From Beijerinckiaceae bacterium (lineage in GTDB: Bacteria > Bacteroidota > Bacteroidia > Chitinophagales > Chitinophagaceae), in NCBI GenBank assembly GCA_903970475.1, contig CAJCIQ010000163.1, positions 1-64,000 of the forward strand: 64,000 nucleotides of DNA. The letters run 5' to 3'. Below the pieces are notes generated by a model. That model was given only the letters and a program-made list of their open reading frames with translations, was not told the origin of the DNA and searched no databases. Below are positions 47,964 through 64,000 of this stretch, piece by piece; position 1 is the stretch's first letter, and every line of letters starts with the position of its first letter. The position numbers and the translations under genes were made by a program.

Positions 47964-49460
47964 ATGTTACCCATGGGTTGGATAACCTTTCTATTAGGTT
48001 TAGGTTTAGCAGAATATGGCCTTTACGGCATGTTCCGGAAAGCAGGCATAACAGATTGGAAGGCGTGGATACCTTATTATAATACCTGGGAGATGGTTAA
48101 AGTCTCCCAGAAAAGGAAATGGATCTTTTTCTGCCAGTTCATTCCCTTTGCGGGCCCCTTTTTTACCTTGGCTATAACCATAGACTTTGTAAAACTATTC
48201 GGCCGCTTCAGCCTGATTGATCATGCACTGGCCGTATTCGCACCCTTTGCGTATTTGCCATATCTGGGGTTTAGCGCCAGCATCAAATACACGGGCGTGG
48301 TCCCACACACCAAAGGTGTGGTGCGGGAATGGATAGATGCAGCCGTATTCGCAGTCGTGGCCGCTACCCTGATCCGCATCTTCATCTTCGAGCCCTTCGA
48401 GATTCCTACCCCTTCCATGGAAAAAAGCTTACTGGTGGGCGATTATTTATTTGTCTCTAAGATGAGTTATGGGCCCCGTTTACCCAATACACCGATGGCC
48501 ATTCCCTTTGTTCATAACACCATTGGCAGTATTAAATCGTATGCAGAATGGATACACTGGCCCTACAGGAGGGTATGGTCTTCTCCCATAAACAGGGGAG
48601 ATGCCGTCGTCTTCAATTTTCCTGTCGGGGACACCAGCATAGACCTGCCCAACTTTGGCTCCCAGATTACTTATTACCAGCAATGCCGGTCCATAGGTCG
48701 CCAAGCGGTGCTCAATGATCCGGAAGGCTATCCTTTGGTGATCAGGCCTGTGGATAAAAGAGAAAACTTTATCAAACGATGCACAGGCGTTCCCGAAGAT
48801 ACCCTTCAGGTCATCAATAGGCAGGTATACGTCAATGGGCAACCGACGCTCAATCCCGCTGGTGCAGAATGGAGGTATATGGTCACCACAGCGGCTAACC
48901 CCTTGTCTTATGATTTTCTGTCAGACTCCCTGCACATCAGGGCCGATGAAGATACCAATGGAAATTATTTGCAGATCAGCCGGACACAGGCTTATCTGAT
49001 CATGACGGACGAACAAGTGGAAAAAACCAAAAGGCAAGCCGGCGTAGTTGCGGTCACTCCTTACTTACCAGTAGCCAATGATCCGGATCTGTTTCCCTAT
49101 GACACCGCAAATTACCGCTGGAGCGAGGACAATTACGGCCCTATCTGGATACCGGCCAAAGGAGCTACCATTCAACTCACCTTAAGGAACCTATCCCTAT
49201 ATGAACGTATCATCAACGTCTATGAAGGCAACCACCTGGAAGTAAAAAACGGGCAAGTATTCATCAATGGACAACCCTCCACCCAGTATACGTTTAGGAT
49301 GAATTACTACTGGATGATGGGAGACAACCGGCACAACTCCGAAGACTCCCGGTACTGGGGTTTTGTTCCCGAGGACCATATTGTAGGCAAGGCCATCCTT
49401 ATCTGGATGAGCTGGGACCACGGCCCCCGCTGGAATAGGATTTTCAAAAGCGTTCAGTAA
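47964..49460 (+). CDS. lepB: Signal peptidase I
   Basis: The 498-residue protein from MLPMGWITFLLGL is long for this family. An N-terminal membrane part of about 120 residues (WIPYYNTWEMVKVSQKRKWI, FAPFAYLPYLGFS) precedes a catalytic domain with FEIPTPSMEKSLLVGDYL (nucleophile Ser about 151) and KRENFIKRCTG (general base Lys about 271). The final box is MMGDNRHNSEDSRYWGFVPE. About 150 residues lie between the Lys region and the last box, typical of the large Bacteroidota version. It cleaves signal peptides of exported proteins. Its last 17 bases overlap the convergent sterol-desaturase gene. Confidence 0.95.
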   Translation: MLPMGWITFLLGLGLAEYGLYGMFRKAGITDWKAWIPYYNTWEMVKVSQKRKWIFFCQFIPFAGPFFTLAITIDFVKLFGRFSLIDHALAVFAPFAYLPYLGFSASIKYTGVVPHTKGVVREWIDAAVFAVVAATLIRIFIFEPFEIPTPSMEKSLLVGDYLFVSKMSYGPRLPNTPMAIPFVHNTIGSIKSYAEWIHWPYRRVWSSPINRGDAVVFNFPVGDTSIDLPNFGSQITYYQQCRSIGRQAVLNDPEGYPLVIRPVDKRENFIKRCTGVPEDTLQVINRQVYVNGQPTLNPAGAEWRYMVTTAANPLSYDFLSDSLHIRADEDTNGNYLQISRTQAYLIMTDEQVEKTKRQAGVVAVTPYLPVANDPDLFPYDTANYRWSEDNYGPIWIPAKGATIQLTLRNLSLYERIINVYEGNHLEVKNGQVFINGQPSTQYTFRMNYYWMMGDNRHNSEDSRYWGFVPEDHIVGKAILIWMSWDHGPRWNRIFKSVQ

Positions 49461-50499
49461 CTTGGTTGAATGAAATCGGTGCATCCCCCACCAATGGTCC
49501 ACCCTGGGAAAGTTCGCTTCCTTCTTTTTTAGATTTGAAGAAGGGCCATAGGAACTGAGCATACCATTCCTCTTCCATATAATGCTTGATACCAAAGGAA
49601 GAAGGATACTTCCTGGAAATAATGCCCGTACCAAATATGATATCCCAGAGGAAAAACATGTTCCCAAAATTCCCCTTGTAGTGCCCAACCCCATCACCGC
49701 TTGTATCGGCGTGGTGAGCCTGATGGGTCGCGGGAGTAGAAATCAACCTTTCCAATACCCAGGCCACCGGATGTAAGGCCCTGTATTTATAGAAGGGCTT
49801 GTCCCAGGGAATGCTGGAGTGGGCCAAAGTGGTGATAATACCTTTGATCACCCCAACAAACAAAGCCGCATAGCCTAAGCCCAGGTATACCAGGGCGGCC
49901 GTGAGATAGATCTGAGAGAAAAAGACCGTGTATATCAGGTTCTGGCGGCTGGCCATGGCCATACCCATATAGGGAGCGCTGTGGTGCGTACGATGAAACC
50001 TCCACATAAAGGGCACCTGATGATGCAGGCGGTGATACCAGTATTGAGTCAGGTCGTCGGCCACCGCAATGATGAGAAATCCCCACCAGAAAGGCACCCA
50101 GTTAAACACACCCTTCAAACCAGGAAGGGCATGGGGCAATAGCCACAAGGTAAAGTAGGTCAGGAACGGACGTATAACAACCCTGGGCGCTACGAAACAA
50201 ACGATGTCCAGGATACGCTCGTTTTTCTTCCAGCGGTTTTCGTACAAATGAGCGCCAAACTCCACCAGACCGAGGACCACCATCAAAACAGGAAGTCCCC
50301 AGGTACTAAGGTTTTTAAATATGACCTCTATCCAGACGGGGAGGTTATATTCCCATCCCGGAGCAGTACTATGCAACCAGGGCTTTGCGCCCGTCCAGTA
50401 AAATACCAGAAACATCAGGGCTACAGGAGTGATATACAATAACAGGCTCACCAGGGCATCCCTGGTAATGTGCAGGCCTTTAATGGAAGATGTCGACAT
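49444..50499 (-). CDS. Sterol desaturase / fatty acid hydroxylase superfamily membrane protein
   Basis: The 351-residue protein has several transmembrane helices and the diiron histidine motifs YWYHRLHHQVPFMW, FHRTHHSAPYMG and THQAHHADTSGDG. It is an integral-membrane oxidase or hydroxylase acting on a lipid; the substrate (hopanoid, carotenoid or fatty acyl chain) cannot be told. It lies 18 bases behind the 38-residue membrane protein gene and the sulfatase on the same strand, so it may be the distal gene of that operon. The 3' end overlaps lepB by 17 bases. Confidence 0.9.
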   Translation of the reverse strand: MSTSSIKGLHITRDALVSLLLYITPVALMFLVFYWTGAKPWLHSTAPGWEYNLPVWIEVIFKNLSTWGLPVLMVVLGLVEFGAHLYENRWKKNERILDIVCFVAPRVVIRPFLTYFTLWLLPHALPGLKGVFNWVPFWWGFLIIAVADDLTQYWYHRLHHQVPFMWRFHRTHHSAPYMGMAMASRQNLIYTVFFSQIYLTAALVYLGLGYAALFVGVIKGIITTLAHSSIPWDKPFYKYRALHPVAWVLERLISTPATHQAHHADTSGDGVGHYKGNFGNMFFLWDIIFGTGIISRKYPSSFGIKHYMEEEWYAQFLWPFFKSKKEGSELSQGGPLVGDAPISFNQVTERF

Positions 50500-50517
50500 A
50501 CATAAGGGTTTGTATAG

Positions 50518-50634
50518 TTAGAGTAAATGGCGTACCAGCCAAAGAGCAAGCAGGAATAGGACTAGTGGTACGATCAGTACCACCAGTCCTACGCCTATCT
50601 TTTTGCTAAGGGTATATACATCTTGACGCGTCAT
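50518..50634 (-). CDS. 38-residue single-pass membrane protein, coupled to the sulfatase
   Basis: The ATG (50634-50632) overlaps the sulfatase TGA (50633-50631) as ATGA, a classic translational coupling. The product begins MTRQDVYTLSKKIGVG, continues with one strongly hydrophobic helix of about 20 residues (residues 15-34) and ends LWLVRHLL. It stops 18 bases before the start of the sterol-desaturase-like gene. A conserved tiny membrane subunit or regulator is possible. Without relatives this cannot be confirmed, but the coupling and clean membrane helix support a real gene. Confidence 0.6.
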   Translation of the reverse strand: MTRQDVYTLSKKIGVGLVVLIVPLVLFLLALWLVRHLL

Positions 50635-52463
50635 AATTTTGCATTAGCGTGAATCCTACGGTGGAATACATCTTCCCAATCTATATATGGATAGATATGG
50701 TATTGTTTGGCATCCTGCTCAAACTGAGCCTTGAGTTCAGCCAGCTTCTCCGGATTTTTCTTAGCCAGGTCCACCTGTTCATTGAAATCCGTATTCAGGT
50801 TGTACAATTCCCATACGTCCTTATCCCAGTCCCTGACAACGTGGGTCGTATCTTTTGCCTGACCCGTCAGATCCAGGATATCCGGGTGGTGATAGGTCTC
50901 AGCCTTCCATCCATCTTTATACACAGAGCGGGCTCCGAATATGTAATAGTATTGCTCCGTATGCCTGGAAGGCGCATCCTTATGGTCAAAACTGTACACC
51001 AGGGAAGTACCCTGAAGGGAATCCTGGACAATGCCCCGGATGGAAGCCGGTTGGGGTATATGCAGGAACTCTTCTACGGTTGGCAGGATGTCTATGACGT
51101 GTCCATACTGGGTACGTATTCCACCCTTGTCCGTGATGGATTTAGGATAAAACACGATCAAAGGGTTACGGGTTCCGCCTTCTGAGTTGGCGTCCTGCTT
51201 CCAGTATTTGAAAGGCGCATTGGCGGCCTGGGCCCAGCCCAAAGGGTAGTTGGTATTGTGCCCTGAAGGGGTACCGATTTCCCCAATGCTGTCCAAGTTA
51301 CGCTTTACAGCTACATCCTCGGGATCTGCTTTTCCGAACAAACCCTTGTTGATGGTTCCCTCCAGGGTACCTTCTTTGGACGCGCCATTATCTCCTATGA
51401 TGACCAGTACCAGGGTATTATCGAGTTGGCCGCTTTCCTTTAAATAGGAAATCAGTCTGCCCACCTGATGATCTGCATATGTCAGGTAAGCCGCATAGAT
51501 TTCCATAAAGCGGGCATACACTTTTTTCTCATCCGGCGTCAGGCTGGTCCAGGCAGCAATATTGGGGTTGCGGGCCGGAAGGGTTGCATTGGCTGGGATA
51601 ATGCCCAACCGCTTTTGATTGGCAAATACCTTTTCCCTGTATACATCCCAACCCTCATCGAATTTACCTTTATAGATATCCCTCCATTCTTCAGGCACCT
51701 GATGGGGAGCATGAGTAGCACCTGGAGCATAATACAAGAAGAAAGGTTTATTGGGAGCGGCTTTATGCTGGGCCTGGATATAGGAAATAGCTTTGTCGGT
51801 AATCTGCTCGTTCAGGTTTCTTCCGTCTGGTCTCACATGCGCATTGTCTTCCACCAGATCCGGTTGATATTGATCCGTCTGGGAACCCAGGAACCCGAAA
51901 TTCCGGTCAAACCCCTTTCCGCTGGGCCAATGGTCGAAGGGGCCAGCATCCGTAGCCTCTTCATCAGGTGTTAGTCCGTACTTGCCTACTGTGAAGGTGT
52001 TGTACCCAGCATTCCTCAGTACCTCAGCAATGGTACCATCCTGGGAAGGTATACGTCCATCCCATCCAGGAAAACCTGCCGACATCACGATATGCGAAAA
52101 ACCACCTTCGTGCACGAAATGGTGATTACGGCCGGTGAGCAGAGCCGAACGCGTCGGCGCACATATGCCTGCCGTATGGAAATTGGTATAGCGTAGACCA
52201 TTTGCCGCCAGGCTATCAAAAGTAGGCGTGGGGATCAGGCCCCCAAACGTAGAGGTGGCGCCGAATCCAACGTCATCCAGCAATATCAGGACCACGTTGG
52301 GCGATCCCGCCGGTGGCTTTACCGGTTGAGGCCACCACTCTTTACTTTCCGCCAGGGTACGGCCTACCGTGCCCCGGTAGGAAGTATCCTGGGCCCGGAC
52401 CTCCAGAGAGGCCCAGGTTCCAAGGATGATCCCAACTGCAAAGGGAATATGTCTTAGGTTCAT
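50631..52463 (-). CDS. Arylsulfatase (formylglycine-dependent)
   Basis: The 610-residue protein has a signal peptide (LRHIPFAVGIILGTWASLEV). It contains NVVLILLDDVGFG with the metal-binding Asp pair, the sulfatase signature GICAPTRSALLTGR (CxPxR, Cys101, to be converted to formylglycine) and VLVIIGDNGASKEG. It belongs to the arylsulfatase A-type (S1) family. An anaerobic-type or FGE-type maturase must be elsewhere. It lies 126 bases behind a SusD gene; that gap shows no terminator or ORF. It probably desulfates a glycan imported by the neighbouring SusC/D pair. Confidence 0.95.
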   Translation of the reverse strand: MNLRHIPFAVGIILGTWASLEVRAQDTSYRGTVGRTLAESKEWWPQPVKPPAGSPNVVLILLDDVGFGATSTFGGLIPTPTFDSLAANGLRYTNFHTAGICAPTRSALLTGRNHHFVHEGGFSHIVMSAGFPGWDGRIPSQDGTIAEVLRNAGYNTFTVGKYGLTPDEEATDAGPFDHWPSGKGFDRNFGFLGSQTDQYQPDLVEDNAHVRPDGRNLNEQITDKAISYIQAQHKAAPNKPFFLYYAPGATHAPHQVPEEWRDIYKGKFDEGWDVYREKVFANQKRLGIIPANATLPARNPNIAAWTSLTPDEKKVYARFMEIYAAYLTYADHQVGRLISYLKESGQLDNTLVLVIIGDNGASKEGTLEGTINKGLFGKADPEDVAVKRNLDSIGEIGTPSGHNTNYPLGWAQAANAPFKYWKQDANSEGGTRNPLIVFYPKSITDKGGIRTQYGHVIDILPTVEEFLHIPQPASIRGIVQDSLQGTSLVYSFDHKDAPSRHTEQYYYIFGARSVYKDGWKAETYHHPDILDLTGQAKDTTHVVRDWDKDVWELYNLNTDFNEQVDLAKKNPEKLAELKAQFEQDAKQYHIYPYIDWEDVFHRRIHANAKL

Positions 52464-52589
52464 TTGGTTGTTATTTTGATTTAAGGAAAAACAAATGCTT
52501 TACTTCTTTAAGGCTTTCTGGATCTCGGGTTTGCTGGGTCTCTGACTCCCTGATTCCATTCATCCGGTTCCCAGGCGCCGGCGTGAAGC

Positions 52590-54080
52590 CTACCATCCAG
52601 GGTTTTGCGTCAGGTAAGGGTCTAACTGCAATTCCGTCAGCGGTATAGGGAACAGCGTGTCTTTGGGTGAGGCGCCACCTCCGTTGGCTATTTGTTTGGG
52701 ACCTACGGCATTCAGGGCATCATAGAGGTAGCTTCCACCCCGGCGCACCAGGTCAAACCAACGATGACCTTCCTGTATGAACTCCTTACGATTCTCCAGG
52801 AATACCGAATCCCTGAAATCTGATTGATTCAACCCCACCGTCAGGTCCGGCACACTAGCCCTTTCCCTGACTTGATTGATGGCCAGGTAGGCTTGAGCGG
52901 TTGGTCCACCATTGAGCTCGTTGAGCACCTCGGCCTCCAGGAGTAGGATTTCTGCGTAGCGGATGACGGGATAGTTCATCCCGCTTTTTGCCTGATTATT
53001 CAGGGGAGACAACGAATAGTCCACAAACTTATTGAAGTAGGGGGTATAAGCCGTTTTATACACGATGGTCTGACCGGTGGCAGCATTATATTGGGTCGTA
53101 TAGAAGGTTACATTATAACGCTTATCCGTAGGGGAAAACAACTGGGAAACGCTGCTGTCTGCCGGCACGTCAATAGGCCAGGTGGCTGGATTGAAGGCCA
53201 AAAAGCTTTCACTCAGGTATTGCTGAGAGTTGAGCGCTCCCAGATTAGATTCGAACTGTACAGAGAAGATATGCTCTATCCCATTTTTGGTAGGCCGCTG
53301 GAAAGCATCCTGATAATTGGGGAATAAGCCGTACTTCCCTGAATTGATTACGATCTGCAATTGGGTCCAGGCGTCCGTCCAGTCTTTACGCGTGACATAT
53401 ACCTTAGCCAACAAAGCATGTGCTGCCCCGCTGGTAGCCCTTCCTACATTGGCCCCTGTATAGGATGCAGGCAGGTTAGTAGCATCGTTCAGGTCTGAAA
53501 TAATCTGGTTATAGATGCTGTCTACCGAAGTGCGGCCTACCAGCAATGCACTTACTTCTACGGTAGTAGGGTCGTGCAATACCAGGGGAACGGCCCCAAA
53601 GAGGCGCACCAGGTTGAAGTACAACAAGGCCCTGATGAACTTTGCTTCCCTGATCAACCGGGGCTGTGTAGTGGTATCCGTAAACTGGGAGGCAGGAATA
53701 TTGGGGATATTATCGATGGCAACATTGGCCCTGCTGATCCCATAATAATGCTGCTCCCAGGTTTTATGTACCCGGTCATTGGAGGATACGTAAGTGGCCG
53801 TACCCAGGGCCCTTACGTCCGGATTGGTATTGGAAGGGCTGTATATCTGGTTATCACTTCCGTTCTCGACCAGCAGGTTCAGGTTCCTGCCGTAAATGGG
53901 GAAGTCATTGGCCGGATCAGAGTTGAGGGCACTATATGCCGCCGTTACCGCAGCCACTGCATCGGAGGACGTTTTATAAAACTGACTGCTCACGATGGTG
54001 GCGCTGGGATTCTCCGATAGTTTATTGCAGGAGGACAGCACCAGCGCTGGTAGTGCTATCCCTAATAAGAGCTTTTTCAT
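52590..54080 (-). CDS. SusD/RagB-type glycan-binding lipoprotein
   Basis: The 496-residue protein has a lipoprotein signal ending LPALVLSSCNKLSE. SusD features include QFYKTSSDAVAAVTAAYSAL, REAKFIRALLYFNLVRLFGA (TPR helix), RYAEILLLEAEVLNELNG and the C-terminal DTLFPIPLTELQLDPYLTQN. Its start lies two bases from the stop of the SusC gene at 54082, and the two would form one outer-membrane import complex. The following sulfatase suggests a sulfated substrate. Confidence 0.95.
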   Translation of the reverse strand: MKKLLLGIALPALVLSSCNKLSENPSATIVSSQFYKTSSDAVAAVTAAYSALNSDPANDFPIYGRNLNLLVENGSDNQIYSPSNTNPDVRALGTATYVSSNDRVHKTWEQHYYGISRANVAIDNIPNIPASQFTDTTTQPRLIREAKFIRALLYFNLVRLFGAVPLVLHDPTTVEVSALLVGRTSVDSIYNQIISDLNDATNLPASYTGANVGRATSGAAHALLAKVYVTRKDWTDAWTQLQIVINSGKYGLFPNYQDAFQRPTKNGIEHIFSVQFESNLGALNSQQYLSESFLAFNPATWPIDVPADSSVSQLFSPTDKRYNVTFYTTQYNAATGQTIVYKTAYTPYFNKFVDYSLSPLNNQAKSGMNYPVIRYAEILLLEAEVLNELNGGPTAQAYLAINQVRERASVPDLTVGLNQSDFRDSVFLENRKEFIQEGHRWFDLVRRGGSYLYDALNAVGPKQIANGGGASPKDTLFPIPLTELQLDPYLTQNPGW

Positions 54081-54081
54081 A

Positions 54082-57000
54082 TTACAGAGTAAGGTTTATA
54101 CCAGCCAGGAAAGTCCTGGTAGGAGGATAAATGCCATAGTCGATTCCGGCCTTCGTATTGTCTGTGTCGTAGAAGTTGGCTTCGGGATCGTAGCCCGTAT
54201 ATTTGGTCAAGGTCCACAGGTTCTGCACGGACACATACACCCTGATTTGTTTGGTTTTCACCGTACCCGTTCCGTTGGGGAAGGTATAGCCAAGGGACAG
54301 GTTCTTCAACTTGAGGTAAGAGCCATTTTCTATGTAACGATCTGTCACTTGCGGAACCGGAGAATCGGTCGCCCTGGCGACGGTACCATTAGGATTTGAA
54401 GGGCTCCAGCGATTCAACAAAGTAGAAGACACGTTCAAAGAAAGGGTGGGTCTTTCCAGCGTCTGCTGAAGGAGGTTGAAGATCTTGTTCCCATAAGAAC
54501 CCTGGAACAGGAAGGAAAGGTCAAAATGTTTGTACGTAATCGTATTGGAGAACCCATAGGTCCATTTAGGCTGAGAGCTACCCAGATTATGTTTATCGGC
54601 AGTAGTGATTTTGCCATCATTGTTCCAGTCTACATACTTCGTGTCCCCTTCCTTCTGAGGCACACCAGCTAGCGTAGGAACACCTTTGGCAATGTCGGAA
54701 GCTGTGAGCAGCCCATTGGTGGAATAGCCCCAGAAAGTACCCACGGGCAAGCCCACTGCGACGTTCACGGGAGACACCTGTCCGGTGGGAGCCAGGGGAA
54801 AATAGCTACTTACCCCAGGTCCCAGGTTGAGTATTTTATTTTTATTGGTGGCCAGTATAAGCGTTGACTTCCAGGAAAAGTCCTTAGCCCTGATGTTTTC
54901 CGTATTGACGGAAAATTCAAATCCTTTGTTGGATACGCTGCCCACATTTTCCAGCTCACTGGCATAGCCCGTATACAAAGGAAGGGGTACATTCAACAAG
55001 AGGTCCGTTGTTTTCTTGGTATATACATCAGCCACCACGTTGACCCTGTTATTCCATAATCCGAGGTCAATACCTGCATCATACTGGGTCGTGGTTTCCC
55101 ATTTCAAGTCGGGATTAGCCAGTTGAACAGGTGCAATACCTGTTACCAGGGTTGAGTTGAAGTAATAGTTACTGGGAGCCAAAGCCGCCAATGAACTGTA
55201 AGGGGGTACTTCAGAGTTACCCGTTTGCCCGCCGGTCAGGCGTAGCTTCAGGTTAGAGATGGTATGTTTGGCCCTTTCAAAAAAGGACTCCTGGTTCACA
55301 TTCCAGCTTAATCCCACAGAAGGGAACAAGCCCCATTTATGGTTGGCGCCAAGCACGGAACTTCCATCGGCACGACCGGAAACGGTGACATTATACTTAT
55401 GGTTATAGGAGTAGGAAACCCTGGCCAGGTAAGAGTTCAGGGCAGAAGTATGGGCATTGGAGGAACCCAGTACCGGCGTTCCTGCATAACCCAGGTCATT
55501 GAAAGATGTCAGGTTATTGGGGAATTTCTCCGCATTGGTCACCACGGACTGATCCTTTTCTGCCTGGGTTGTATACCCCACCAGGGCAGTCAGGAAATGG
55601 AGGTCCCTGAAAACATGATCATACGTTACCGTATTCTCATTGACCCAAGTTGTCACCGACGCGTTGCCAATGGAAGCATATCCCGAAGCAGGATAGCCCG
55701 CAGAAGTAAAGGTGGGTGCATAGTAGTTCTGTTTGGTATTGATCAGGTCAGCCCCAATGGTAGACTTCAACGTCAGGTCGGGGAAAAGTTTATATTCTGC
55801 CGCAAAATTGCCCAAAGTCCTGGTCAGCAGGCTCTGGTTAGTCGTAGCCGTGATGTCCTGGAGCGGATTGGTCGGCGTCGTCAGGTAGGGACTATTGGTA
55901 TTGTAAGTCCCGTTGGCATTGTAAATGGGGACCACAGGCGTTGTCGTCAACAACGTAGAATAAGCATTACTGAATTGAATGCTCTCATAACTACTGCCCT
56001 GGAGTTCATCCTGAATGGAACGGCTTCCAAAGGCATTCACAGACACCTTGAACCGGTCTGTAACGTTGCGTTCATAGTTGATCCTACCTGAATACCGTTT
56101 GAAATCAGAAGCCACAATGACCCCATCCTGGTCAAAATAATTGCCAGAGATCAGGTACCTGGATTTATCGTCCCCACCGGAAACGGACAATTCATGGTTT
56201 TGTTCCGTAGCTGTCCTTAAGGCTGCGTTCTGCCAGTTGGAACCTGTTCCCAAAGCAGCAATCTGAGCAGCCGTATATGTTTGTGGGACCCCATCGCTGA
56301 TATTGACATCATTGATCAGCGATCCCCATTGGGAGGCATCCATCAGGTGCAATTGCTTAGACACCTTCTGCGTGCCCACATAAGGACTATAATTTACTTC
56401 AGCGCCATTTTTCTTACCCTTGCGGGTCGTGATGATCACTACTCCATTGGCGCCCCTGGAACCATATATAGCAGTAGCTGAAGCATCTTTGAGCACTTCA
56501 ATAGATTCAATGTCCGAGGGATTGATGGTGGATAAAGCATTCACTGAGGCCCCGGAAGTGGCGCCCGTATTTACATAGTCATTGTCATTATACACAATGA
56601 AGCCATCTATCACATACAGAGGCGCATTGCCAAAAGAAATGGAGTTTCCACCCCTTACCCTGATCGTGGCCGTACTCCCAGGTTGCCCATTGCTTTGGGT
56701 AACCGATACACCGGAAACCCCACCCTGGAGCAGATTATCGAAGGAGACAGCCGGTTGAGTCAAGAGGTTTTTAGAAACCGTAGCAACCGATCCCGTCAGG
56801 TCACTCTTGCGTTGGGTACCATAACCCACGATCAATACTTCACCCAGGGCGCCATTGGTTGAAGTGAGCTGAATATCCACGTGCCCATAGCTCTGGATGT
56901 TGACCTCTTTGGTCTTATAACCCGTATAGCTTATGCTGTAGGTAACCGGAACGCGTTGTCCCGTGATAAATTTGAATTCCCCATCCTGATCGGCCACTAC

Positions 57001-57312
57001 CTGGTGGGTGGTGCCAAGGATATGAATAACGGCTCCAGGTAAAGGTTCCTTTGTTTTGTCATCAATGACCCTTCCGACAAGCCGGACATTATTGTTTGGA
57101 TTGGAAGCTTCGCCCTCCCCCCCGTTGGATTTTACAGGCGAGGAGCCCGCGCCATTTGTAGTTTGACCTCCGCTGGTTTGGCTACCGCCATTTGTGGTTT
57201 GACCGCCGCCGTTTGTAGTTTGACCCAGGCTGGACAAGGAGTTAACGCCCAGGCTGGACACTATCAGGCACCAGGGAATAATACTTTTTCGATACCTTTG
57301 AAAAAGATGCAT
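54082..57312 (-). CDS. SusC/RagA TonB-linked outer-membrane receptor, N-terminal GQTTNGG repeats
   Basis: The protein has 1076 residues from the ATG ending at 57312 (or 1083 from 57333). The signal peptide (SIIPWCLIVSSLGVNSLSSL) is followed by a low-complexity GQTTNGG-like repeat and then a carboxypeptidase-regulatory-like domain (VRLVGRVIDDKTKEPLPGAV). The plug contains IVGYGTQRKSDLTGSVATVS, TATIRVRGGNS and APLYVIDGF, and the barrel ends TRTFLAGINLTL. It lacks an STN domain and has no sigma/FecR neighbour, unlike the first SusC in this window, so control must differ; a possible antisense RNA covers its start. It pairs with SusD two bases downstream. Confidence 0.95.
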   Translation of the reverse strand: MHLFQRYRKSIIPWCLIVSSLGVNSLSSLGQTTNGGGQTTNGGSQTSGGQTTNGAGSSPVKSNGGEGEASNPNNNVRLVGRVIDDKTKEPLPGAVIHILGTTHQVVADQDGEFKFITGQRVPVTYSISYTGYKTKEVNIQSYGHVDIQLTSTNGALGEVLIVGYGTQRKSDLTGSVATVSKNLLTQPAVSFDNLLQGGVSGVSVTQSNGQPGSTATIRVRGGNSISFGNAPLYVIDGFIVYNDNDYVNTGATSGASVNALSTINPSDIESIEVLKDASATAIYGSRGANGVVIITTRKGKKNGAEVNYSPYVGTQKVSKQLHLMDASQWGSLINDVNISDGVPQTYTAAQIAALGTGSNWQNAALRTATEQNHELSVSGGDDKSRYLISGNYFDQDGVIVASDFKRYSGRINYERNVTDRFKVSVNAFGSRSIQDELQGSSYESIQFSNAYSTLLTTTPVVPIYNANGTYNTNSPYLTTPTNPLQDITATTNQSLLTRTLGNFAAEYKLFPDLTLKSTIGADLINTKQNYYAPTFTSAGYPASGYASIGNASVTTWVNENTVTYDHVFRDLHFLTALVGYTTQAEKDQSVVTNAEKFPNNLTSFNDLGYAGTPVLGSSNAHTSALNSYLARVSYSYNHKYNVTVSGRADGSSVLGANHKWGLFPSVGLSWNVNQESFFERAKHTISNLKLRLTGGQTGNSEVPPYSSLAALAPSNYYFNSTLVTGIAPVQLANPDLKWETTTQYDAGIDLGLWNNRVNVVADVYTKKTTDLLLNVPLPLYTGYASELENVGSVSNKGFEFSVNTENIRAKDFSWKSTLILATNKNKILNLGPGVSSYFPLAPTGQVSPVNVAVGLPVGTFWGYSTNGLLTASDIAKGVPTLAGVPQKEGDTKYVDWNNDGKITTADKHNLGSSQPKWTYGFSNTITYKHFDLSFLFQGSYGNKIFNLLQQTLERPTLSLNVSSTLLNRWSPSNPNGTVARATDSPVPQVTDRYIENGSYLKLKNLSLGYTFPNGTGTVKTKQIRVYVSVQNLWTLTKYTGYDPEANFYDTDNTKAGIDYGIYPPTRTFLAGINLTL
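57151..57226. repeat. Short in-frame repeats coding GQTTNGG/SQTSGG in susC
   Basis: Four degenerate repeats of 18-21 bases, seen on the plus strand as variants of GCCATTTGTAGTTTGACC, encode the Gly/Thr/Asn-rich linker at about residues 30-55 of the second SusC, between signal peptide and first domain. Such arrays can vary in copy number by slippage. Confidence 0.7.
57293..57300 (+). promoter_or_regulatory. TAnnTTTG -7 box of a putative antisense transcript
   Basis: TACCTTTG is a perfect match on the plus strand, inside the first codons of the minus-strand susC. It points outward through the susC start codon toward the terminator at 57391-57423. No -33 TTG at the usual distance is evident, so support is partial. 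Confidence 0.35.
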
Positions 57313-57423
57313 GTGAATGATTTTATCGTTCATGTAATTCCGATGAACTTCAGTAGGTGATTGGCGTTACGTTACTGGATTCATCTTCCCGCCGGTAAGG
57401 ATCGCTCCTTACCGGCCTTTTTT
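57307..57423 (+). ncRNA. Putative cis-antisense RNA to the second susC start
   Basis: This is a predicted plus-strand transcript of about 117 nt, beginning about seven bases after the -7 box at 57293-57300 and ending at the strong terminator at 57391-57423. It would be complementary to the susC start codon and 5' leader and carries no ORF of note. Antisense RNAs at the 5' end of susC homologues that repress polysaccharide-use loci are established in Bacteroides (the DonS type). Assignment here is by position and terminator only; both transcript ends are estimated. Confidence 0.4.
57391..57423 (+). terminator. Strong plus-strand intrinsic terminator facing away from susC
   Basis: GCCGGTAAGGA (57391-57401) and TCCTTACCGGC (57406-57416) form a perfect 11-base stem with a TCGC loop, followed by CTTTTTT. 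The T-tract is only on the plus strand; on the minus strand the hairpin is followed by GGGAAG. No plus-strand protein gene ends here, so an unannotated plus-strand transcript is implied. Confidence 0.85.
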
Positions 57424-57453
57424 CTTCATTTGTTCGGTTGGAAAACTGGACTG

Positions 57454-57576
57454 TCAACAACAACAACAACAATCCTTTTCAGAAGGGCAACAATCGGCGG
57501 GAACGTCCATGGACTCACGGGCGGCATAATGAATAAAGAGGGGCATGTAGGCCCTCAAAGAGGGAATGACTTTCAT
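57454..57576 (-). CDS. 40-residue Cys-rich ORF ending in five cysteines
   Basis: The frame from the ATG ending at 57576 encodes 40 residues: MKVIPSLRAYMPLFIHYAAR, then ESMDVPADCCPSEKDCCCCC and a TGA. Seven of the last twelve residues are Cys. The last five codons are TGT, a CAA/TTG microsatellite on the plus strand, but the CC pair in PADCCPSEKD is coded by TGT TGC outside that repeat. No signal peptide is seen. It could be a metal-binding peptide or a modified-peptide precursor; no family is known to me. It is on the same strand as, and 188 bases behind, the decayed moaA-moeA fusion. Reality as a gene is uncertain. Confidence 0.45.
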   Translation of the reverse strand: MKVIPSLRAYMPLFIHYAARESMDVPADCCPSEKDCCCCC

Positions 57577-57626
57577 AACAGTCTTATTGCAGTTAATCAA
57601 TAATGGTACAAATTAAAGGTAAAATT

Positions 57627-57659
57627 ATTAGTCTACATAATTAGTAGAGTAATTTTTTT
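57627..57659. terminator. AT-rich hairpin with T-tract, possibly bidirectional
   Basis: ATTAGTCTAC (57627-57636) and GTAGAGTAAT (57644-57653) pair with one mismatch around a seven-base loop, followed by six T on the plus strand and a weaker AATTTTA on the minus strand. It could end transcripts from the moaA-moeA remnant. The remaining sequence from 57577 to 57763 is AT-rich and has no other feature that I can support. Confidence 0.4.
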
Positions 57660-57763
57660 ATGAATTGTAGCACGAACCATCGTTCGTCCTTGCAGCACCT
57701 ACCGAATGTCGTATGCAAGTTCCATCCTTATTGGATGGGTAAAAAGTGCACTCAGACCTGCCT

Positions 57764-59635
57764 CTATGGATTGGGCAACAAGTGCACTTCGACAGGTGCT
57801 CCCGCCGGGCAATGCATAGTCTCAGCATCCACCTGTACGAGGCAATTAGCCTGGGCAAAGGAGCTTAGACGATAAGACTCCTGAGCGACCAGGACACGCA
57901 CTGATTGGTCATTGTAATTATAAATAGCCTTGAGAAATTGAGTCAATCCCCTAGGCTTGGAAAAGGGTTCCTCCAGTGGGGCTTTAAATACCTGCAAGCC
58001 GGTTTGCCTGCCCGTCAGGGCGCACAAAGCAGGTAGGACATATTCATAAAAAGCCACGAGGGTGGAAGCCGGGTTTCCCGGCAAACCGAAAATATATTTT
58101 TCGCGGGGGGCCTCCTTTAACCGCCCGAAGAACAATGGTTTGCCGGGCTTCTGCGCTACCCAGTGAAACACCGTTTCTATACCCAGGTTGGCGGCGGCTT
58201 GGGCTACATAATCAAAATCCCCCACACTAACCCCTCCAGTGAGTAATACCATATCATTTTCCCTTAGCGCGCGGATCAGGTTCCCTTCGATGACATGGGG
58301 GATATCTTTTAGGTGGCTAATGGATAGTTTATTAAATCCGTACTGTTTAAGGCCCGAATGTAATGAGTAGGGATTAGCTTCATATACCTCCCCAGGTTCC
58401 AAGGGCAAGCCAGGCTTTTCAGTTCGTTCCCCGTTAGCAGCACACCGCGCCAGATCCCCTGCTTTAATTTCCGCACCTCGTGGTCTTACGTTAATTCCCC
58501 TGGCCAGGTGTTCATCGTTGATAAACAATGTCCCCTCTTCTATTCTGACCTTTTCCTGCATGACAACCGTGTCCGCGCCCTCGGGTAAAGCTCCGCCTGT
58601 AAAGATGCGCGCGGCCTGCCCTGGCTGCAAAGCAACGCCGGAAGGCCGGCCTGCCGGAATGAACCCCTGGATGATAAGGCCACCGGAAGCACCCAGGCTA
58701 CCCTGCGGGCTCAGATTGTCCGATACGCCAGGACCATCCGATACGCCCAACTCGTCCTGCGGGCACCTGGTCCCTCTCTCCTGAAAGTCCTGAAAGGATA
58801 GGGCGTAGCCATCCATGGATGATTGGTCAAAAGTACCCGTCGGTCCGGATTCAACAGTACCCATAAGCCCGGGTTCAACAGTACTCGCCGACCCTGATCT
58901 ATATGCGCCCACCGACCTTGATTCAGAAGCACCTGACGGGGCGAGCACCCTATAAACTTTAGCCGTCGCATTGACATCCCCGTGGAGTGGCTCAATTGCA
59001 TACCGGGCTTCAATGGTTTCCAATATTTCTGGAGTGGTTACTACCTTATTACTGGTCCACCCATTACCCTCAAAGGGCATAAATTCTATAAACCGGACAT
59101 TCACAGGGACCCGGGTTGTCCAATGAACGAAATCCATCACTTCATCATCATTCACCCCTTTCATCACCACCATATTGACCTTAACATGGTAACCTTTCCC
59201 GATGGCTTTGTCAATATTCCCTTTGACCAACCCAAATTGATCCCTCCTGGTGATGGAGGCAAATCGCCAGGCTGTAAGGTATCCAAACTTATATTCAGAC
59301 CGCAATCCCGCAAAGTCCAGTACCTCCCAGAACTCGTGAAGTCTGGTACCATTAGTGGTCATGGTTAAAGAAACCGGGAGTACAGACAAGCAACGGATGA
59401 TATCGGCCGCATCTTTTCTTGCCAAAGGTTCTCCTCCTGTCAAACGAATTTTCGTGACCCCTTGCTGGAAAAATACCTTCGCCAGTGTTTCTATCTCGTC
59501 CGGTTGCATCAGGCGGGAGGTGGGTGAAAAGGGGTAAACATCCTAGGGCATGCAGTAAAAACAGCGCAGATTACAGTTATCCGTGAGCGATATCCTCAAA
59601 TAGTCTTGGGTCCTGTGGTAGCCGTCTTGGAGCAT
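57764..59635 (-). pseudogene. Decayed moaA-moeA fusion (molybdenum cofactor synthesis)
   Basis: The frame from the ATG at 59635 reads as MoaA ([19 protein letters not shown], the radical-SAM CxxxCxxC) but meets an in-frame TAG at 59545-59543, where MoaA normally has Glu. It then continues with GVTKIRLTGGEPLARKD. Around 59269-59300 the expected NISLDTLQP is in another frame, implying two compensating indels. MoaA then stops short after NATAKVYRV, before its C-terminal Cys cluster. A repetitive linker leads into MoeA from SSMDGYALSF, without the first MoeA residues. MoeA retains IFTGGALPEGADTVVMQE, TGGVSVGDFDYV and FGLPGNPASTLVAFYEY but lacks about 35 residues after AEIKAGD. These lesions together indicate a non-functional remnant. 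A MoeA-like C-terminal product made from an internal start is possible. Confidence 0.8.
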
Positions 59636-59732
59636 CCCTAAAAATACAACTCCCTGAAGTAACAATTATATAACCCCGAATATTTGCCTTCCCGGAGACT
59701 TATATGGTGATTTGTTAAAATACCTCGAACAC

Positions 59733-61154
59733 ATGTCCATGATTTTTGCCTTGATACGGCTCCCGTACATCGGGGACGTAAATCTCAGCACACCCATCAC
59801 GATCATCTTCATCCTTTGCCTTGTGGCGGTAGTAGGCTTTGAGTTCGTGAACGGATTTCACGACACGGCCAACGCCGTGGCCACGGTGATCTATACCAGG
59901 GCCCTAAAACCCATGGTCGCAGTTCCCTGGTCGGGCGCCTTCAACTTCCTGGGTGTACTAGCCGGGGGTGTTGCGGTGGCCATGGGCATCCTCAAATTAT
60001 TACCCCTCAACGAAATCATGTCCCTCCCTGTAACAGTAGGAGCGTGTTTTGTTCTGGCCGTACTACTGGCTTCCATTGTCTGGAACCTGGGCACCTGGTA
60101 CCTGGGCATTCCCTGTTCCAGCTCCCATACCCTGATCGGCGCTATGATCGGAGCGGGGCTGGCCTTTACCCTATACTACGGAGGGCCGGGCGTAAACTGG
60201 AGCAAAGCAGGCGAAATAGGCATGTCCCTGATCCTGTCCCCCCTGTTTGGGTTCTTCGCGGCAGTTTTGCTCATGTTTTTCCTTAAAAATGTATTGAAAG
60301 CCAACTCCCTTTTTCACGTACCCCAGGGAGAGGACGATAAACCGCCCATACTGATCCGTTTGCTGCTGATTACCACCTGTACGCTGGTGAGCTTTTTCCA
60401 CGGCAGTAACGACGGACAGAAAGGGGTAGGATTGCTGATGCTGATCCTGATAGCCTTTTTGCCGGCCAGCTTTGCCATTGACCGTACGGTGAGCGATACT
60501 ACGCTGCTGACTTACGTAAACAATTCAGAGCAAGTCATCCAAAGGACCCTCAGCGCCCATCCCGGAGACGCTACTTTTATGTCCCTGGATTCTTCTATGA
60601 CTAATCTTCGCACGCAGATCGAACACAAATCCGAAGCAGGCAACACCGCTGTTTTTGGTATCAGGAAACAGATTCAGAAGGTAGCCAAACAAACGGCTGC
60701 GGCTATTGCAGCCCCCAACAGCCCCTTAAGCGCTGAGGATAAAGCCACCCTTTCCAAGTCTGGAAAGGATTTGAATAAAACCACGGAATACGCACCTATC
60801 TGGGCAATAGCCACCATCTCCTTATCCCTGGGTATTGGTACCATGATTGGATGGAAACGCATAGTGGTGACCATCGGTGAGAAAATAGGTAAGGAACACC
60901 TCAACTACGCTCAGGGCGCCACTGCCGAAATCGTGGCTGCGTCCACCATCGGATTGAGCACCTGGTTTGGTCTTCCAGTGAGCACTACCCACGTGTTGTC
61001 CAGCGGTATTGCCGGGGCCATGGTTGCCTCCAAAGGATCAGGCAACCTCAACAACGGCACCCTGCGCAATATTGCCATGGCCTGGATACTGACCCTACCT
61101 ATTTCCCTGGGTCTGGCGTTTGGCCTGTTTGCTTTATTTCACCTATTTGTATAA
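59733..61154 (+). CDS. Low-affinity inorganic phosphate transporter (PiT family)
   Basis: The roughly 473-residue protein has N-terminal GFEFVNGFHDTANAVATVIY (the PiT signature) and a second inverted repeat with FFHGSNDGQKGVGLLMLIL and GLPVSTTHVLSSGIAGAMVA. It has about ten transmembrane helices and a soluble central loop at about 270-340. It moves phosphate (or metal-phosphate) with a cation. An in-frame TTG at 59712 is possible, but the ATG codons at 59733 or 59739 are preferred. It is followed 40 bases later by a universal stress protein gene; the moaA-moeA remnant diverges upstream. Confidence 0.95.
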   Translation: MSMIFALIRLPYIGDVNLSTPITIIFILCLVAVVGFEFVNGFHDTANAVATVIYTRALKPMVAVPWSGAFNFLGVLAGGVAVAMGILKLLPLNEIMSLPVTVGACFVLAVLLASIVWNLGTWYLGIPCSSSHTLIGAMIGAGLAFTLYYGGPGVNWSKAGEIGMSLILSPLFGFFAAVLLMFFLKNVLKANSLFHVPQGEDDKPPILIRLLLITTCTLVSFFHGSNDGQKGVGLLMLILIAFLPASFAIDRTVSDTTLLTYVNNSEQVIQRTLSAHPGDATFMSLDSSMTNLRTQIEHKSEAGNTAVFGIRKQIQKVAKQTAAAIAAPNSPLSAEDKATLSKSGKDLNKTTEYAPIWAIATISLSLGIGTMIGWKRIVVTIGEKIGKEHLNYAQGATAEIVAASTIGLSTWFGLPVSTTHVLSSGIAGAMVASKGSGNLNNGTLRNIAMAWILTLPISLGLAFGLFALFHLFV

Positions 61155-61194
61155 TTTATAGAATATTCTTCTCATCCAACAAAATGGATCATAC

Positions 61195-62016
61195 ATGAAA
61201 AAGATCTTAGTCGCTACCGATTTTTCCTCCTGCGCGGCAAACGCCATGGAATATGCCATGGAACTTGCCAAATTGCTCGAATGGGAAATCTGTGTCATAC
61301 ATGCCATCGGGGTGCTGGAAGGGGTTAACAACAATACCTATAGTGCGCTATATATCAGTGATTACCAAAATCACAAAAAGGAAGCCCTGGATGCCTGGGC
61401 TGCCACATTCCGTACCAGGGATGGATTCAAAAAAATCCCCATTACCACCGTATGTGAGGTTGGTTCTGTCTCCTCCGTACTGGGTAAGTACATAGACAAC
61501 AATCCGGTTGAATTACTGGTCATGGGAAATATGGGCTCTACAGGTATCATCGGGCTGTTTGGTTCCAACGTAAGCTCCATGATTGAAAAGACAAAGACAC
61601 CCATTTTAATTCTTCCTTTAGAAAGCAAATTCACCTACACGCCTACCCTTACACTGGCTACGGACTTCTCGACCAAACTTTCTCCCGAAGACACTACCGT
61701 GCTGGGCGATTTAGCCCAGGCTTTCAGGTCACCTACCGTTACGGTATTAAACGTTATAGAAGGCTCCGATTGGAATACAAAACCAGAAGGGGAAGCCGCG
61801 CTGAGGAGTGCTATCCCAGGTGTTGATTTAGATTTCCATTACATCAGCGAGGAAAATACCATCGAGGGAATCATGAATTTCGTGGTCAGCAATGAAATCG
61901 ACATCCTGTGCCTGGTAAAACATCACCATAACGTGGTCTACAGGTTATTTAACAGGAGCACGGTTAACCAGGTGATGAATCGCTCCGTGAAAGCGATATT
62001 GGTATTGCACGAGTAG
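61195..62016 (+). CDS. Tandem-domain universal stress protein
   Basis: The 273-residue protein has two UspA domains. The first (KKILVATDFSSCAANAMEYA) ends in MGNMGSTGIIGLFGSNVSSM, which matches the G-x2-G-x9-G-S/T ATP-binding motif. The second (TPTLTLATDFSTKLSPEDTT) is degenerate at that site (LVKHHHNVVYRLFNRSTVNQ). Tandem Usp proteins are common in Bacteroidota and help in stress or starvation. It probably shares a transcript with the phosphate transporter. The 51 bases after it hold no terminator. Confidence 0.93.
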   Translation: MKKILVATDFSSCAANAMEYAMELAKLLEWEICVIHAIGVLEGVNNNTYSALYISDYQNHKKEALDAWAATFRTRDGFKKIPITTVCEVGSVSSVLGKYIDNNPVELLVMGNMGSTGIIGLFGSNVSSMIEKTKTPILILPLESKFTYTPTLTLATDFSTKLSPEDTTVLGDLAQAFRSPTVTVLNVIEGSDWNTKPEGEAALRSAIPGVDLDFHYISEENTIEGIMNFVVSNEIDILCLVKHHHNVVYRLFNRSTVNQVMNRSVKAILVLHE

Positions 62017-62067
62017 TGCTGCCAGGTCGCGCAGGATAGCCGCTGCATGAGTCGCGGGCCGCGCAGC

Positions 62068-64000
62068 CTACTGGCCCATCCGCTTATTCATAATGATCTG
62101 CAACTGCTTTGCTACTTCCCGGTCATTTGGATGTTCCAGGAATGTTTTATGGTCACCAGGCAAATTCCAGATATGCAAACGATGGGGCGCAAAGGCGCCC
62201 CATCCTAAATATTGGGGGTCTGCAATAAAATAAATGCGGGTCCTGACCCTGAACAGATCAACATCTCCGTCAAAGTCGAAGACAACTTTATAATTTTCCC
62301 TGGCTGTGTGCAGGGCATTTTTCACCGGTTTTGAGATCCAGTCATTTTCCGGACCTTCTTCTATTTCCCAATCTTCGAGTACAGGCAAGCCCACAAACCT
62401 GCGGAACCGTTTGCGGATCGTGTACCATTGATAATCCACGGTGAGCTTGGGTTGGCGTATGAGTGAATTAAATATGAATGCCACCTTTTTGGGCTGGCGC
62501 ATAATTTTAGCCAGTATCCTTTTGGCTCCTGAAACATCGGGCGCCACATCCCCTGCATAAGTATCCATCAGCACGAGCATATTCACAGGTTTACCCAGGG
62601 CTCTTAGTTGTCTGGCCATTTCATAAGCAATAATTCCGCCCAAAGAATAACCAGCCAAATAGAATGGGCCATCGGGGTTTTGTTCCAGGATTTCCGATAT
62701 ATACTGGGCTGCTACTTCTTCAATGCTATTGGGTGGATCCATGTCTCCATCTATCCCCCTGGCCTGTATGCCAAATACAGGCTGGTCTGCATCCATATAC
62801 TCCGCCAGCGAATGAAATATCATGACCGTCAAACCAATACCATGCACCACATACAGGGGGGCTTTGTTCCCTTGAGGTTTTATAGGTACCAGGGCTTTTG
62901 CGTAGGTCCTTCCTTCATGCGTATCCAGAATCCTGCCCATCTTTTCGATGGTAGGCGCCTGAAATAGCGCAGCCATGGGTAGCCGGAATCCTGTCCTTTT
63001 TTCCAGGGTCACCATCATGCGGACGGCAATCAAAGAATGACCGCCCAAGGCAAAGAAGTCCTCGTCTACCCCAATATCCTGTTGACCTAAAACTTCCTTC
63101 CAAATATCGGATAGCAGTCTTTCGTTATCTGTAACCGGCGCCCGTTTACCACCGGATACCGTAGCATACTCCGGCATGGGCAATGCCTTCCGGTCTGTTT
63201 TACCGGTAGGGGTTCTGGGCATCCGGTCCACAAAAACGTACGCAGAAGGGACCATGTAGGCAGGTAGGTGTTTGTTCAATGTATCCTGCCAACGCCTGCC
63301 TAAGAGAGGTTGCTCCTGTGGGGAAACCATATGCTCTGGAACTACATAAGCTACTAATCGTTGGTCATCTGGCCTGTCTTCCCTGAGCAGAACCACCACT
63401 TCCTTGATACCACCCAACCTTATGAGGTTATATTCGATTTCCCCCGGCTCTATTCTGTGTCCCCTGAACTTAAATTGCTGATCTGCCCTGCCCATAAATT
63501 GGAGGTTGCCATCAGCCATGATCATTCCTAAATCTCCTGACCGATACATCCTTGCACCGGGAATAGGGGAGAATGGATCAGGCAAAAACCGTTGAGCCGT
63601 TAGCTCCTCTCTCTGTATATATCCTTTGGTAACCCCATCTCCACCGATCACAATTTCTCCTATATTCCCATCGGCCACGGGTTGGAATAAATCATCCAGA
63701 ATATAGATCTGCGTATTGGCTACGGGGCCGCCCAAAGAAATGGGTTCATCTTCAAAAATCTGGGTAGCTGTTGAATAAACGGTCGTTTCAGTCGGGCCAT
63801 ACATGTTGTATAACCCCAGGCATCTGGGTAATAAACGATCTGCCACATCTTTGGGTAATGCTTCCCCTGCGCTGATGAACTTGGCATCCAGCTTGTCTGT
63901 CCACTCCCCATCCAGGATCAGCTTCCAGGTAGAAGCGGAGGTTTGGATATAGGTCACTTTCTCCCTTCTGGCTAATTCCAGGATTTCCCTCCCATCTCTC
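62068..64000 (-). CDS. Non-ribosomal peptide synthetase, C-terminal part (A-T-TE), N-terminus outside window
   Basis: The frame is open to the right edge, with adenylation-domain sequence continuing past 63957 (DGREILELARREKVTYIQ), so this is the 3' end of a longer gene. The visible order is: second half of an adenylation domain (NMYGPTETTVYSTA, GEIVIGGDGVTKGY, MYRSGDLGMI, FRGHRIEPGEIE, PTGKTDRKAL), a carrier domain (DFFALGGHSLIAVRM, with the Ser for phosphopantetheine), and a type I thioesterase (YLAGYSLGGIIAYEMARQL) for release. A5-A10 motifs look intact. The selectivity pocket residues lie partly outside the window, so the amino acid cannot be named. Confidence 0.95.
   Translation of the reverse strand, partial: RDGREILELARREKVTYIQTSASTWKLILDGEWTDKLDAKFISAGEALPKDVADRLLPRCLGLYNMYGPTETTVYSTATQIFEDEPISLGGPVANTQIYILDDLFQPVADGNIGEIVIGGDGVTKGYIQREELTAQRFLPDPFSPIPGARMYRSGDLGMIMADGNLQFMGRADQQFKFRGHRIEPGEIEYNLIRLGGIKEVVVLLREDRPDDQRLVAYVVPEHMVSPQEQPLLGRRWQDTLNKHLPAYMVPSAYVFVDRMPRTPTGKTDRKALPMPEYATVSGGKRAPVTDNERLLSDIWKEVLGQQDIGVDEDFFALGGHSLIAVRMMVTLEKRTGFRLPMAALFQAPTIEKMGRILDTHEGRTYAKALVPIKPQGNKAPLYVVHGIGLTVMIFHSLAEYMDADQPVFGIQARGIDGDMDPPNSIEEVAAQYISEILEQNPDGPFYLAGYSLGGIIAYEMARQLRALGKPVNMLVLMDTYAGDVAPDVSGAKRILAKIMRQPKKVAFIFNSLIRQPKLTVDYQWYTIRKRFRRFVGLPVLEDWEIEEGPENDWISKPVKNALHTARENYKVVFDFDGDVDLFRVRTRIYFIADPQYLGWGAFAPHRLHIWNLPGDHKTFLEHPNDREVAKQLQIIMNKRMGQ

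Follow-up and report, generated by a model that had tools for sequence, protein, structure and literature searches.

A predicted cis-antisense RNA gene opposite the start of a susC-susD-sulfatase unit with a cysteine-run leader peptide in Chitinophagaceae

The DNA analysed here, called the window below, is a stretch of 64,000 nucleotides from contig CAJCIQ010000163.1, in a genome whose GTDB lineage ends in the Chitinophagaceae. Its minus strand carries a unit of four genes: a susC gene (TIGR04056, 54082..57312), a susD gene (52590..54080), a sulfatase gene (PF00884, 50631..52463), and, last in the unit, a gene of the FA_hydroxylase family (49444..50499). The order susC-susD-sulfatase-FA_hydroxylase is found again in genomes G001 and G007; several sulfatases follow susC and susD in G029 and G016. 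The substrate of the susC importer probably consists of sulfated compounds. Translation of susC starts more probably at the ATG at 57310-57312 than at 57333, where the longest ORF begins, because in the genes of the same leader subtype in G001, G310, and G082 no in-frame ATG lies farther upstream. A search of eight neighbouring genes (49444-63957) found no sigma/FecR pair, in agreement with the initial annotation, which had described the unit as lacking one.

The susC leader region of the minus strand contains two further features that the initial annotation had overlooked, a leader peptide and a promoter element. An ORF for a leader peptide of 40 residues (MKVIPSLRAY...EKDCCCCC*, 57454..57576) ends in five Cys codons and a stop (57454..57471). 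Upstream of it lie a palindromic operator/promoter element found by pattern search, CTACTAATTATGTAGACTAATA (57626..57647), and the probable -7 region of the susC promoter, ACCTTTAATTTG (57609..57620), which has no exact TAnnTTTG and whose position was taken from relatives in which TAnnTTTG is clear. Two peculiarities of the adjoining coding regions may be recorded. After its signal peptide and before its first domain, the susC protein contains a repeat rich in Gly, Thr, Gln, and Asn (QTTNGGG-like, about 57080-57260, minus strand), which is missing from the susC relatives in G001 and G007. A single minus-strand ORF at 57764-59509 joins a radical SAM/MoaA-like part of about 190 residues, without the first 27 positions of the Radical_SAM profile, to MoeA domains; it is either an unusual molybdenum-cofactor fusion or the result of a frameshift near its start.

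On the plus strand, opposite the 5' end of susC, is an apparent intrinsic terminator (57391..57423), a perfect 11-bp stem with a loop of four (GCCGGTAAGGA-TCGC-TCCTTACCGGC, 57391-57416) followed by C and six T (CTTTTTTCTT). It faces away from susC, and no credible plus-strand gene ends at it; opposite susC there are only mechanical ORFs, and an 80-residue ORF starting with TTG (57361-57603, plus strand) runs across the stem. Ninety bases 5' of the stem is TACCTTTG (57293..57300, plus strand), which lies opposite susC codons 5-7 and fits TAnnTTTG, the -7 consensus described in PMC7366714. The initial annotation had pointed out both the stem and the box, and had predicted from them an RNA of about 115 nt complementary to the start codon and leader of susC. 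Stem and box are both confirmed, and the span from -7 box to U-run gives a predicted RNA of about 118 nt (57307..57424, plus strand), which covers either candidate start codon. Three hairpins are predicted: a 5' hairpin (57311..57335, from folding) over the susC start codon, a middle hairpin (57342..57385, from folding and alignment) with a conserved GTGATTGGCGTTAC region, and the terminator. The predicted RNA was aligned across G000, G001, G310, and G082; the position of TACCTTTG is kept in G001 and G310, and G082 has TACCTTCG, with one change. No -33 box was seen upstream of the antisense -7 box in the window, and in Flavobacterium johnsoniae a -33 box was likewise not found globally (PMC7366714).

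Boxes of this kind are loose, and terminator-like sites are common: the interval 50000-64000 has 22, compared with 14.6 +/- 3.8 expected from shuffled sequence. A palindrome that happens to follow an accidental match to a promoter box must accordingly be considered. The antisense stem has the most pairs of the 22 sites, however, 11 against ten for the runner-up. The plus strand of 57307-57424 folds at -46.4 kcal/mol (z -6.39, none of 200 shuffles as good), and the minus strand, representing the susC leader, at -33.5 (z -3.60, one of 200 shuffles as good). The plus-strand fold, together with the conservation with compensatory change, the G-U bias, the placement at long ORFs, and the susC matches outside the family that are documented below, contradicts chance and makes it hardly credible.

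Other identities of the locus were also examined. A plus-strand ORF of 17 codons (57307-57360, found by eye) is shortened to six codons in G001, and the antisense RNA, which is probably non-coding, was therefore treated as such. A dispersed repeat was rejected, as the stem pattern occurs at a single place in the genome. Rfam returned no match in the window at the gathering score, and only tRNA for seven loci at E up to 5, so that no known RNA family was recognized in the antisense RNA. Plasmid records gave nine weak matches, none with 80% coverage. The first susC gene of the window (16048, plus strand) has a terminator on neither strand and no antisense -7 box.

The arrangement recurs among relatives of this susC, which include genes from Chitinophaga, Niastella, and Segetibacter. 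Two of them, from Chitinophaga filiformis DSM 527 (L132) and Segetibacter koreensis DSM 18137 (L130), share the anatomy seen in the window. An antisense terminator of -12 kcal/mol or better, lying -200 to -60 from the start, precedes 18 of 31 relatives and 16 of 133 distinct other susC genes, where kinship among the relatives inflates every count, and start codons set by a hydrophobicity rule leave some control positions off. In 17 of the 18, the terminator sits between -117 and -75. The 31 exclude L238, which has an internal stop, and L130, which is the same gene as L213 (Segetibacter), and include both L221 (Niastella) and L131, again one gene; the 133 controls derive from 141 rows in which eight genes occur twice. 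Over the interval -260..+40, with L018 skipped, the relatives have 19 antisense and 9 sense terminators at -12, and the first 101 controls have 14 and 8 (12 and 4 at -14). Terminator-like hairpins on the sense strand were found in 8 of the 31 relatives. Thirteen relatives have no antisense terminator, and seven of these have a Cys leader; L221, L224, L225, L228, and L233 combine the absence of the terminator and a Cys leader with a different, long structured leader. Several of the long hairpins in these five contain a GGTGGTTGG-like loop word.

Presence of the promoter box goes with that of the terminator. An antisense -7 box at -20..+25 of the ATG is present in 13 of the 18 relatives with a terminator, and the exact box is absent in five; it is found in one of the 13 relatives without a terminator (Fisher 7e-4, or 8e-4 once the duplicate L131 is removed) and in 9 of the 133 other susC genes (Fisher 2e-9). 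Its offset from the ATG varies by subtype (-8, -7, or +12), and a place that depends on subtype is not readily explained by ribosome-binding context.

A covariance model, R1, was built on the antisense strand from an alignment of ten members (A2). A search of 294 family genomes with it, at E up to 0.05, yielded 43 matches in 40 of them, against a chance expectation of about 15. The 30 matches with E of 0.0034 or better (about one expected by chance) were aligned with L132 and L184, giving 32 members, of which ten had built R1 and 22 were new; the 13 matches outside this set include two later loci, L341 and L343. Thirty-one of the 32 members (21 of the 22 new ones) lie where a long ORF begins on the opposite strand, 27 of them within 5 nt of the ORF start and four between -51 and +67. 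TAnnTTTG stands at the 5' end of 23 of the 32, the exact box being missing in nine, and a crude susC motif was recognized behind 23 of the 32. All five proteins searched behind model matches have susC-type Pfam domains (Plug, CarbopepD_reg_2). Applied to 296 genomes of the phylum, R1 matched five genomes that belong to two other families of the class, with E of 0.001-0.02; all five matches are at susC starts (by Pfam for two), although about six chance matches were expected. By contrast, model R2, built from G000, G001, G310, and G082, found no additional strong member in the 294 family genomes, and the six examined of its 24 weak matches were all at no long ORF, which is the picture of chance matches.

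This fixed placement bears on a further explanation, in which the terminator only halts stray or read-through plus-strand transcription running toward the upstream gene, and there is no dedicated small RNA. Antisense RNAs in Flavobacterium psychrophilum are described as arising mostly through imperfect termination and non-canonical initiation (PMC9723704), a precedent for such an origin. Transcription of this sort does not call for a conserved -7 box, for further conserved hairpins from box to terminator, or for a position fixed at a long-ORF start in nearly all model members, and in the window the plus strand opposite susC offers only its mechanical ORFs as a source. We regard this explanation as distinctly improbable.

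Not every R1 match has the sense-strand features of the window. Some are at susC genes with the operator and a Cys leader; others, L297, L299 of the genome of the window itself, L303, and L306-L309, are at susC genes with neither. An STN domain is present in L299, L303, and L306, the three that were searched. By this distribution, the antisense RNA and the Cys leader are separate modules that are joined in the window.

The hairpins might instead belong to the mRNA leader of susC and serve, with the Cys-run peptide, in ribosome-mediated control, the antisense terminator being then just a sense hairpin seen from the other strand. A Cys-run leader is indeed directly upstream, the sense fold of the window also beats chance, and Cys leader peptides without obvious terminators have been predicted in Actinobacteria (PMC1262725). 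For the region from stem to ATG, folded in 16 of the 18 relatives (all but L227 and L234) and in 90 of the 141 control rows, the antisense strand has a mean z of -2.37 in relatives against -0.15 in controls (p 7e-8), and for the sense strand the means are -1.44 and -0.19 (p 2e-4). The strands differ with p 0.01, and in five of the 16 relatives (L212, L132, L223, L218, and L229) z is more extreme on the sense strand. Stem energies alone, in 17 relatives, do not differ significantly between strands (Wilcoxon, p 0.08).

The strands can also be compared by pairs that are G-U on one strand and A-C on the other. In the stems of 17 relatives (without L234), G-U pairs number 15 on the antisense strand and 4 on the sense strand. 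Alignment A2 gives 6 antisense and 0 sense for the terminator, and 6 and 1 for the second hairpin. In alignment A3, the four members of the window subtype, the three stems have 22 antisense and 0 sense (11 and 0 in the 5' hairpin), counts to be read with caution as the stems were predicted on the antisense strand. The terminator in the 32-member alignment (A4) has 30 and 1, with similar caution since A4 had been aligned to a model of the antisense strand. This asymmetry indicates selection on the fold of the antisense transcript rather than on that of the susC leader. In the sense direction, moreover, the stem comes after an A-run and has no U-run behind it, the RNA is also found at the susC genes listed above that have neither Cys leader nor operator, and the antisense -7 box would be left without explanation. 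The mRNA-leader explanation is therefore, in our estimate, improbable.

Covariation of the terminator stem in relatives, named at the outset as a check on the prediction, was found. In the model alignment of the 32 members, 96% of the cells in the structure are paired, and both sides have changed in nine of the 11 terminator pairs. None of 500 shuffles scored as well, and the structure scored above all slid structures, with the caveat that related sequences may reach such scores without structure. As a separate matter, ATTGGCGTT is on the antisense strand in the window, in the middle hairpin, and in a sense-strand hairpin in L230, L231, and the Pedobacter leader L167, as if a U-turn, an established loop motif, were usable by either partner.

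Cys-run leaders, defined as stop-terminated ORFs with three consecutive Cys close to the end, precede 21 of 30 susC relatives (L131 removed) but only 2 of 133 distinct other susC genes (2 of 141 rows). Leu runs, which a TTG repeat would encode in another frame, occur in 9 of the 30 relatives and in 17 of the 141 control rows. Cys-run leaders were also found upstream of PhyH genes (L087, L089, and L107), a sulfhydrylase gene (L098), and a glutamate-dehydrogenase family gene (L039). Two leader peptides searched against NCBIfam had no match. No sense-strand terminator was found after the Cys leader of the window, which is therefore not a classical attenuator. Among six non-susC regulon genes, five with Cys leaders, an antisense terminator-like hairpin precedes one (L107) and an antisense -7 box none, so that Cys leader and antisense RNA are again separable. 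In 14 relatives, between 26 and 322 nt separate the Cys-run stop from the terminator, a variation that speaks against a fixed steric link between the two. In L338, L339, and L340, from another family, a second mini-ORF (MKKLMCCR*, MKKRMCSK*, and MKKRMCCR*, respectively) adjoins the antisense terminator before the A-run; its equivalent in the window, judged by eye, is MKKKGR*.

When up to two mismatches are allowed, the operator/promoter element is matched 86 times across 59 related genomes and its reversed pattern 23 times; in the genome of the window, the counts are 10 and 0. All counts are sums in which near-palindromic places are counted twice. An earlier pattern that joined operator and Cys run by a short gap matched three genomes and missed the window, and the operator by itself was used instead. 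Of the stretches listed, 60 had their sites read. The genes searched behind the operator include those for O-acetylhomoserine/serine sulfhydrylase, CysD, nitrite/sulfite-reductase-like and YeiH-like proteins, arylsulfatase, PhyH dioxygenases, and FA_hydroxylases, as well as acyl-CoA dehydrogenase, a phospholipase-B-like protein, an M28 peptidase, and a porin; numerous others look by eye like susC. We infer that the operator-linked genes form a sulfur regulon. In four other genomes, FA_hydroxylase or OlsE-like genes lie 9-481 nt behind the operator (L111, L119, L122, and L125), which ties the family of the last gene in the window unit to the same regulon. An unexpected member of the sulfur set is the glutamate-dehydrogenase family gene of L039 (12666-13937, minus strand, genome G016), preceded by an operator with two mismatches and a Cys-run leader (SCCCC*).

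The closest known counterpart of the antisense RNA is DonS, which itself has an intrinsic terminator and for which Cao et al. 2016 is reportedly the original paper. RNAs of the DonS type are divergent to a susC homologue, measure 78-128 nt, and have a negative effect on it (PMC7366714, PMC10994844), so that the statement of the initial annotation that cis-antisense RNAs repress susC homologues in Bacteroides agrees with published descriptions; for antisense RNAs of B. thetaiotaomicron, both correlation and anti-correlation with susC are described (PMC10994844). The predicted RNA of the window falls within this length range, lies opposite the 5' end of susC as its model relatives lie at long-ORF starts, and ends in an intrinsic terminator. 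The likeness is one of position, length, and terminator. The predicted RNA differs from DonS in occurring in Chitinophagaceae and two other families, and in its association with a sulfatase unit and a Cys leader and no sigma/FecR pair nearby. FopS of B. thetaiotaomicron binds near the start codon of susC mRNAs and blocks translation (PMC11697453), but FopS and GibS act in trans, whereas the RNA described here is encoded opposite its own target.

The leader peptide resembles Cys leader-peptide attenuators, such as mycobacterial polycysteine ORFs and uORFC-8-2, in being a short upstream ORF with clustered Cys codons at cysteine or sulfur genes (PMC4633059, PMC9031893, PMC8632094), and cysteine-sensitive control is reported for the mycobacterial ORFs (PMC9031893, PMC4633059). 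Leaders of the window type differ in belonging to Bacteroidota, in preceding susC, OAH/OAS sulfhydrylase, and PhyH genes, and in sharing an operator-like element; uORFC-8-2, furthermore, ends in an intrinsic terminator, of which the sense strand of the window shows none. A flavobacterium is described as having 287 antisense transcribed regions and, ahead of amino-acid operons, attenuation by leader peptides (PMC9723704). Among the matches listed in the open-access literature, there was no report of Cys leader peptides in Bacteroidota or of susC antisense RNAs outside Bacteroides.

The terminator, the -7 box kept among relatives, the conserved fold on the antisense strand, and, on the sense strand, the shared promoter element and Cys-run leaders make it quite probable, in our view, that 57293-57424 (plus strand) is a gene for a short cis-antisense RNA, most likely one that represses a susC unit under sulfur-responsive sense control. 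The RNA originally predicted over the susC start is thus supported by the terminators of the relatives, the covarying stem, and the strand bias of its G-U pairs. As judged from sequence comparison, the best reading is a DonS-like cis-antisense RNA on a SusCD-sulfatase unit for sulfur starvation, with putative additional control by a cysteine leader. The antisense RNA would start at the susC start codon and end at its own terminator within the susC leader. Given its complementarity to the start and leader of susC, repression is its most likely effect: full pairing would block ribosome binding and open the duplex to RNases, and repression would extend to the susD, sulfatase, and hydroxylase genes behind susC. 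The Bacteroides precedents and the start-codon blocking by FopS make translation repression and loss of the duplexed mRNA the likeliest mechanism. As no operator is seen at the antisense promoter, expression of the RNA is probably constitutive; it would set a threshold that strong sense transcription alone exceeds. Shortage of sulfur would turn on the sense promoter, and a further step, sensitive to cysteine, would come from the Cys-run leader. Since the sense transcript has its promoter element in common with sulfur genes and first encodes a five-Cys peptide, sense output should rise when sulfur and cysteine are scarce.

A more elaborate form of this proposal joins the two modules in a cysteine-gated antisense switch. 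Ribosome stalling at the Cys run would govern the pairing or shielding of the leader against the antisense RNA, or else whether the sense polymerase overrides the antisense promoter. We give this form an outside chance. If true, charged tRNA-Cys would gate the antisense repression of a nutrient importer, in the service of sulfur scavenging, in more than one family of Bacteroidota.

The simpler reading, a cis-antisense RNA gene opposite susC and next to a cysteine-rich leader peptide, already suggests that sulfur supply adjusts the importer at the level of RNA. The comparative evidence extends beyond Bacteroides the view of susC start codons as a conserved site for antisense RNA genes, and the covariance model provides a means to find such genes. 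In bacteria of the Chitinophagaceae type, a group of sulfur genes appears to share one promoter element and to carry Cys-run leaders, and how these bacteria may switch to organic sulfate esters has become a testable matter.
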